Shown one piece after another: positions 1-3,105 of a DNA stretch of 64,000 nucleotides; positions within the stretch are counted from its first letter, which is position 1, and every line of letters starts with the position of its first letter. The position numbers and the translations under genes are program-made. The DNA comes from Armatimonadota bacterium (GTDB lineage: Bacteria > Armatimonadota > HRBIN16): assembly GCA_026003175.1 (NCBI GenBank), contig BPGT01000001.1, positions 1,550,001 to 1,614,000 of the forward strand, in the 5' to 3' direction. Under the pieces are notes generated by a model that did no database searches, was not told where the DNA came from, and was given only the letters and a program-made list of their open reading frames with translations.

Positions 1-138
1 CAGCACCGCTCCGTAAATCGCTGCGATGAAGGGATTGCAGAGAATGCCTCAGGTACTACCCACCTTGCGCGACAGCACAGACAATACCAGCCCTGCAACT
101 GCCCCACCCAGCGCGGCAAGAATAGCTTTTATCGGCAT
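1..138 (-). CDS. Small DUF6132-like membrane protein with an in-frame TGA (partial)
   Basis: This gene runs off the window edge. It starts at ATG 138, 7 bases after the trxA stop, with an AAGGGGG ribosome site inside trxA. The first 29 codons encode a glycine-rich membrane helix. Codon 30 (bases 51-49) is TGA, and the same frame then continues as GILCNPFIAAIYGAVL to the edge without another stop. The part after the TGA looks like the end of the DUF6132 family, which I recall as having a GG-T-C-P-L-T-C-N-P motif followed by a YGAxLG helix. Aligned that way, the TGA falls on the first conserved Cys, four residues before the second Cys. Readings are selenocysteine, a recent nonsense mutation, or a base error. 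I see no convincing SECIS hairpin, only a 4-bp CTGC/GCAG stem. The function of the family is not known to me. Confidence 0.6.
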
Positions 139-145
139 GGGTGCA

Positions 146-571
146 CTATCCCCCTTGCTGGTTCTCTTCGCTGGCTGTCGGTGCTGGCGCTTCGGCTGGC
201 AAGTAGGGCAGTATCTTCGCCATGATATGCTGTTTAGGCATCAAACCAACCAGACGCTCGCGAGCGAAACCTCGTGTGAACAGGATGAGCGTCGGAATGC
301 CCTGAATGCCGTAGGCGTTGGCGGTAATCGGGTTCTCGTCGGTATTGAGCTTCACCACCTTCAGCCTGCCCTGATATTCACGGGCAATCTCTTCCAGAAT
401 GGGTGCGAGCATCCGGCAAGGCGCGCACCAGGGCGCCCAGAAGTCCACCAGCACCGGAATGTCCGATTCCAGCACCTCTTGCTTGAACGTGCTGGCATTG
501 ACGTGCTTAATCAGACCGCTTTCCGCATGGTCGGATGCCGGTCGCCGTCCGAATAGTCCGAACAAACCCAT
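146..571 (-). CDS. trxA: Thioredoxin
   Basis: This is a cytoplasmic thiol-disulfide oxidoreductase. The WCAPC active site lies near residue 50, within the typical [12 protein letters not shown] context, and the cis-proline loop (GIPTL) is near residue 93. At 141 residues it is longer than the usual 105-110, with about 30 extra N-terminal residues ([10 protein letters not shown]...) and a Pro/Glu/Gln-rich tail. The extension is not a signal peptide. The ATG at 571 is preceded by a near-perfect Shine-Dalgarno, AAAGGAGGTGATAG. It appears to be co-transcribed with the small TGA-containing gene 7 bases downstream, which suggests a redox link between the two (inference). Confidence 0.95.
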
Positions 572-667: not shown

Positions 668-720
668 TTTACGCGGAGGAGGATTCGCGATATAATATTG
701 TCCCCCTGCTTGCGGGGGAG
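668..720 (+). promoter_or_regulatory. Candidate sigma-70 promoter and leader hairpin of nanE
   Basis: TTTACG (668-673) and TATAAT (691-696) are 17 bases apart, upstream of nanE. The predicted transcript would begin with a CCCCC-TGCTTG-GGGGG stem-loop (about 702-718) followed by about 60 bases before the start codon. The -10 is perfect and the -35 is weak. The hairpin has no U-tract, so no attenuation is claimed. Confidence 0.5.
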
Positions 721-781
721 ACTACAGGGGGGCTAACGGCTCGGCGGGAATGAGGTTCGGTCGGGCAGTGGAGATAAACGG

Positions 782-2123: not shown

Positions 2124-3105
2124 CTATGAGTTCCTTGTGCGCACCAGCTCCGCCTGCCGCTCGAATAGCACGCTGACCGAGTCGTCGTTGTGGATGCGCA
2201 GAATCGCCTCCGCCAGCAGCGGCGCTACCGACAGCACAGTAATCTTTTCGTTGATCTTGTCGGGTGTTACCGGAATGGTGTCGGTGACGATGAGTTTACG
2301 GATAGGTGAGCGCAGAATCCGTTCCGGGGCGTTGCCGGAGAGCACCGGGTGCGTGCAGCAGGCTATCACTCCCGTCGCGCCGCGTTCTATCAACGCCTCC
2401 GCCCCCTGCACCAGCGAGCCGCCTGTATCTACCATATCGTCGATCATGATGGCGGTTTTGCCTTCCACGTTGCCTACCACTTCCATCACTTCCACTTTGT
2501 TCGGTTCGGGGCGTCTTTTGGCGATAATGGCGAAAGGCACATCCAGCATCTCAGCCAGCGCTTTGGCACGGGGGGGTACCTGCTACATCCGGCGAAACCA
2601 CCACGCAGTTCTCGTGTGCCAGACCGGACTCGATGAGGTATTCCCCGATAATCGGGCCGGCGTACAAGTGGTCTACGGGCAGGTTGAAGAAGCCCTGAAT
2701 CTGCTGGGCGTGCAGGTCTACGGTAAGGATGCGGTTTGCTCCCGCCACTTCCAGCAGGTTGGCAACCAGGCGGGCAGTTATCGGCTCACGCGGTTTGACC
2801 TTCTTGTCCTGCCGGGCGTAGCCGTAGTAGGGCATGACGCAGGTAATGCGCCTTGCCGACGCCCGACGGAAGGCGTCTAGCATGATGAGCAGTTCCATCA
2901 GGTTCTCGTTCACGGGAGCACAAGTCGGCTGCACGATGAACACATCCAGTCCACGCGCGTTTTCCCCTACCTGCACGCGTATCTCCCCGTCCGAGAAGCG
3001 GGATACCAGTATCTGCCCCAGCGGTATCCCCAAACAGTCCGCGATGTTTGCTGCCAGCAACGGATTGGCGTTGCCGGTAAAGATGCGCATACGGTCCTTA
3101 TTCAT
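2124..3105 (-). CDS. prs: Ribose-phosphate pyrophosphokinase, frameshifted in this sequence
   Basis: Prs makes PRPP from ribose-5-phosphate and ATP for nucleotide, His and Trp synthesis, and is normally essential. The N-terminal 178 residues (bases 3105 to about 2577) contain the RFSDGEI motif, the [13 protein letters not shown] site and [12 protein letters not shown]. The C-terminal part lies in another frame from about 2570 down to 2124 and contains the PRPP loop [10 protein letters not shown]. The two join perfectly (VAGT then [10 protein letters not shown]) if one base is removed from the run of seven G at 2570-2576, beside GGTACC. I regard it as an intact gene with a +1 indel that is either a sequence error or slippage. 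It starts 3 bases after glmU. Confidence 0.93.

Follow-up and report, generated by a model that had tools for sequence, protein, structure and literature searches.

A short gene at the left edge of a 64,000-nucleotide stretch of an Armatimonadota genome (the window, G000:C1:1550001-1614000) is interrupted by an in-frame TGA, and the question is whether this codon ends the gene or is read as selenocysteine (Sec). Re-reading the window from position 138 to position 1 on the minus strand, we found an ATG, 29 sense codons, a TGA at 51..49 and 16 more codons up to the window edge, as an earlier, sequence-only reading of this DNA had reported. That reading had proposed following the contig past the left edge. 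There the frame stays open for 42 more bases, as far as G000:C1:1549959, and is then closed by a TAG (whole gene, L009:2959-3138:-). That is, 30 codons lie between TGA and TAG, and the gene, whose 5' 138 bases occupy window positions 1..138 (minus strand), has 60 codons including the TGA. With the TGA read as Sec, the 60-residue product is MPIKAILAALGGAVAGLVLSVLSRKVGSTUGILCNPFIAAIYGAVLGLLMVLGQNQPHSK. The TGA is codon 30 (window 49..51, minus strand), while the second thiol of the putative Sec-x3-Cys motif, Cys34, is encoded by a TGC at window 37..39 (minus strand). According to its hydropathy, a protein of this type has two hydrophobic helices and, between them, a loop with the conserved Cys motif, as expected for DUF6132. 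An AlphaFold2 model of a homologue from the same genus (L144) placed helices at residues 2-25 and 36-54 around the Sec loop with low confidence (pLDDT 66.6). A PDB sequence search returned nothing useful, and an Rfam search of the window gave no match. If the TGA is taken as a stop, only a 29-residue fragment is left, and standard annotation would probably drop so small a gene.

TGA serves as terminator in 10 of the 33 long ORFs taken from the window. Genome-wide reassignment of TGA was therefore rejected, in agreement with the sequence-only reading.

Within the genus, the TGA stands at the same codon in all nine readable members, the window gene among them. The gene is present in eight of the nine other genus genomes, and all eight of these readable loci carry the TGA in this column, as do many distant homologues; in the ninth genome (G003) the contig ends inside trxA, so that the locus is unreadable. 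The genus copies are about 76-88% identical. Over the 24 codons 3' of the TGA, 9 first, 0 second and 17 third codon positions vary among the nine genus sequences, which points to protein-coding constraint and purifying selection after the TGA.

These findings bear on the explanation that the sequence-only reading had named as the main rival, a plain nonsense mutation (or, equally, a sequencing error) in an ordinary Cys-form gene. There is at least one probable indel in the assembly, 2.5 kb away in prs, but the same TGA recurs in nine independent genus assemblies and in many other genera, and coding constraint persists 3' of it. We therefore rejected this explanation, which retains a negligible probability. 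As to prs itself (ribose-phosphate pyrophosphokinase, window 2124-3105, minus strand), its coding sequence falls into two frames at a C7 run (GGTACCCCCCCGTGCC). The other nine genomes of the genus each have it as one intact frame (about 327-338 codons), and the split is therefore likely an assembly or strain-specific indel. A second prs-like gene is located at G000:C1:749274.

A profile search of 291 Armatimonadota genomes recovered many more TGA-form homologues and some Cys-form ones. Codon 30 falls in the family's invariant Cys/Sec column: throughout our alignment (A1), residue 30 is Sec or Cys. The Cys forms in this alignment read CPLTCNP, CPLTCSP, CPLMCSP or CPLLCSP, and further variants were found among the phylum-wide matches. 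The TGA thus takes the place of the first Cys of the motif, which the sequence-only reading had given as CPLTCNP. Like selenoprotein genes in general, the locus combines an in-frame TGA with conserved coding sequence between it and a later stop, and it has homologues with Cys in the TGA column. Cys34 is encoded by TGC in all nine genus members. It is missing from some Sec groups (those with TSNP or TASP), so that not all members can work through a Sec-Cys pair. One group of Sec-form relatives (f21; L043, L085 and L087) has a longer, Cys-containing loop, for example TKGQCTTUGITASP.

We then looked at the Sec machinery. All four components expected alongside a selenoprotein gene, for which the sequence-only reading had proposed a search, were found in the source genome: selA (596 bits), selB (415 bits), selD (385 bits) and a tRNA-Sec (selC) with the anticodon tca (UCA). 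The selD gene has one in-frame TGA of its own, located at the classical SelD site (QVRCAGUASKLGP), and a well-known selenoprotein is therefore encoded independently in the same genome. Across the phylum, the TGA form occurs in 42 of the 291 genomes, every one of which has selA and/or selB (both in 34; several of the assemblies are incomplete), whereas either gene was detected in only 2 of the 15 genomes with a Cys form (Fisher p = 4e-11; both lists include the weaker-scoring f12 family, at about 20-29 bits). Taking only matches with E < 1e-7, machinery was detected in 31 of 31 TGA-form versus 1 of 8 Cys-form genomes (p about 5e-7, worked by hand with the hypergeometric formula). Genomes within one genus are not independent, so both p-values overstate the evidence; the association spans many families. 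One clear exception, G016, has a Cys form together with Sec machinery, a combination that is permissible. In another genus (g132), one genome (G237) has the TGA form and both selA and selB, whereas in the two others (G236 and G238) the codon is TGC and TGT, respectively, and neither selA nor selB exceeds the cut-off. The gene that lies downstream is of one type in all three genomes, and the loci therefore look orthologous. This looks like a switch from Sec to Cys together with loss of the machinery, which would make the genus a clean natural experiment.

Alternatively, translation could truly end at the UGA and yield a one-helix peptide of 29 residues, with the downstream conservation reflecting something else. 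TGA terminates other genes in the source genome. In bacteria, termination also competes with the insertion of Sec, and part of the product is therefore expected to be truncated. However, the 30 codons downstream correspond to a second helix, conserved as protein without second-position changes, and the region 3' of the TGA aligns with uninterrupted Cys-form proteins. Moreover, the TGA form is confined to genomes with Sec machinery. A genuine stop is thus very improbable.

Reading of the UGA as Sec would call for a SECIS element, and the sequence-only reading had suggested folding the 60 nt that follow the TGA. This segment forms a long hairpin (z -3.2 versus dinucleotide shuffles) that is conserved in the genus, as expected of a selenoprotein gene. 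The candidate SECIS starts 10 nt 3' of the TGA and, with a genus consensus of 17 base pairs, occupies window positions 1..38 (minus strand), its last bases lying past the window edge. Among the nine genus sequences, 94% of the cells of the 17-pair structure are paired. Counted on 31 diverse sequences, the same structure has 77% of its cells paired versus 37-55% in slid versions, and its covariation score lies above all 500 shuffles and all slid controls; part of this pairing and covariation signal is explained by the relatedness of the sequences and by the derivation of the hairpin from them, and the hairpin overlaps conserved codons. When the 31 diverse sequences were folded jointly with RNAalifold, the consensus had no more than 4 bp; this was the alignment used for counting the genus structure. 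The Leu48 codon, which pairs with the codons of Cys34 and Asn35, is TTG in eight of the nine genus members, although TTG makes up 13% of Leu codons.

According to a published bSECIS rule, a G is found within the first two loop positions (PMC13188914), and the hairpin of the window gene fails this rule. Since the same study reports a subset of bacterial SECIS elements that do not fit the bSECIS model (PMC13188914), the loop G is not a strict defining feature. Nor does the rule separate the homologues analysed here, being satisfied by 35 of 54 Sec and 6 of 8 Cys sequences, and folding z-scores differ weakly between Sec and Cys homologues (p = 0.046, among related sequences). The 11 Sec loci of the f12 group all have an invariant GC-rich hairpin of their own in this position; its loop (GGU, GUU, GGG or GGC) lies 20 nt after the UGA, and one locus (L102) shows a compensatory pair change from C-G to U-A. 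Of the six f12 Cys loci with comparable sequence, most no longer have the matching codons; L114 retains the majority of them. In two members of the f21 group (L043 and L085) the post-UGA hairpins differ in SECIS shape from that of the window gene, their small loops (GUG/GUU) being placed at a distance of 18 nt from the UGA.

TGA-form homologues also occur outside the Armatimonadota. A DNA pattern requiring the TGA matched 29 loci, of which 13 are clear homologues by profile score, while the rest look like chance matches. The 13 comprise six deltaproteobacterial/Syntrophaceae, four Zixibacterial, one unclassified and two Chthonomonad loci. All 11 non-Armatimonad TGA-form genomes have selA (10 over the cut-off, and one as a contig-end fragment).

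Directly upstream of the window gene, on the same strand and separated by a 7 nt gap, lies trxA (window 146..571, minus strand), encoding a thioredoxin with a WCAPC active site (Pfam Thioredoxin, 104 bits). The nine readable genus loci all have trxA as their immediate upstream neighbour, and so do five further Sec-form loci from other families and phyla; in six Cys-form loci, a thioredoxin gene follows closely downstream. The adjacency is not universal among the loci of the family. An OsmC protein neighbours one family locus. Upstream of four Zixibacterial Sec-form genes (L128, L130, L134 and L143) we found a DUF302-type ORF on the same strand (confirmed with Pfam for the L128 neighbour only, the other three looking alike), which hints at a sulfur or redox setting. 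Two repeats were also noted in the vicinity of the window gene: an intergenic segment (window 695-749) with seven more genome copies at about 81-95% identity, probably a dispersed repeat, and, some 2 kb left of the gene, a 195-bp segment duplicated exactly in tandem (L009:483-872; G000:C1:1547483-1547872).

Taken together, the conserved TGA, the exchange of Cys and Sec, the Sec machinery, the coding constraint, the conserved hairpin and the adjacency to trxA make it highly probable, on sequence grounds, that Sec is inserted at UGA codon 30 of the window gene, which supports the selenoprotein proposal of the sequence-only reading.

Which family does this protein belong to? The sequence-only reading had called it DUF6132-type. 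The window protein itself scores 14.2 bits against Pfam DUF6132 (PF19628), below the 23.2-bit gathering cut-off, and to this extent the assignment did not hold. Its motif and helices agree with it, and some Sec relatives exceed the cut-off (L071, 24.2 bits; G256, 24.1 bits; G257, 24.2 bits), as does a Cys relative (L045, 26.7 bits). At E-values up to 1, the DUF6132 model matches 17 of 18 family members. The window protein is best called DUF6132-like, linked to that family via intermediates. DUF6132, a family of unknown function, resembles the window family in its length of about 60 residues, its helix-loop-helix architecture and its motif, G-x-x-C-P-[LI]-T-[SC]-[NS]-P, and the putative Sec of the window family falls on the Cys of this motif.

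We found no Sec form of DUF6132 in the open-access literature, the only match being apparently spurious (subscription papers and preprints lay outside this scope). No selenoprotein model of NCBIfam matches any of the 18 + 14 family members. A prokaryotic selenoprotein inventory from 2026 lists 119 families (Table 1 of PMC13188914), none of which is the window family by name, domain accession or motif. With these families it has in common a UGA with a downstream stem-loop, Cys-form homologues and dependence on selA, selB, selC and selD. In contrast to those with a thioredoxin-like fold, it is a two-helix membrane protein of about 60 residues with a Sec-x3-Cys motif. Listed there as well are the YeeE/YedE thiosulfate-transporter selenoproteins (PF04143; PMC13188914), which are likewise membrane proteins with Sec in a glycine-containing motif, but are large polytopic transporters with a GUxSG motif; the TsuA/YeeE model matches only one member of the window family, and weakly (E 0.022). 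In Sec thioredoxins and thiol:disulfide interchange proteins a redox-active Sec is expected, as it is here, next to trxA; unlike them, the window protein has no thioredoxin fold, and the neighbouring TrxA is a WCAPC protein without Sec. With its UGA kept in dozens of bacteria equipped to make selenocysteine, the window gene almost certainly represents a selenoprotein family missing from current lists.

How might such a protein work? Guided by the stem-loop that starts 10 nt downstream, SelB and the Sec-tRNA(UCA) would insert selenocysteine at UGA codon 30. The resulting protein would form a two-helix hairpin in the membrane, with G-S-T-Sec-G-I-L-Cys-N-P in its short loop. At the membrane surface, Sec30 could serve as a nucleophile in redox chemistry or chalcogen transfer; it may form a selenenylsulfide with Cys34 in the subgroup of the window gene, and it may be recycled by the co-encoded thioredoxin. 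From the gene neighbourhood, we give such a thioredoxin-linked redox role of Sec30 an even chance.

Somewhat short of even odds is a competing view of the function, which likewise takes the protein for a selenoprotein. Its Sec, however, would serve as a metal ligand or as a carrier of selenium or sulfur, and would take no part in thiol-disulfide redox chemistry with thioredoxin. This view competes with the functional half of our explanation and leaves Sec insertion untouched. That neither the second Cys nor the trxA adjacency is universal would fit such a carrier, as would the DUF302 and OsmC neighbours at some loci, the listing of YeeE/YedE selenoproteins (PMC13188914) and the TsuA/YeeE match of one member. 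On the other hand, the carrier view has to contend with the trxA genes that adjoin the nine genus and five other Sec-form loci, and with the thioredoxins downstream of the six Cys-form loci; a metal-binding motif is not evident.

More speculatively, and with a probability somewhat below that of either functional reading, the family might stand for widespread, overlooked membrane mini-selenoproteins in which a single Sec, in the loop of the two-helix hairpin, passes reducing equivalents or chalcogen between thioredoxin in the cytoplasm and a partner in the membrane or periplasm. We know of no selenoprotein for which such a relay has been described. If Sec is indeed inserted, the prokaryotic selenoproteome would gain a family that is present in 42 of 291 Armatimonadota genomes and also occurs in Deltaproteobacteria and Zixibacteria. 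This family would also provide a first biochemical handle on DUF6132-type proteins, in that Sec marks their sole invariant Cys as a likely reactive residue.
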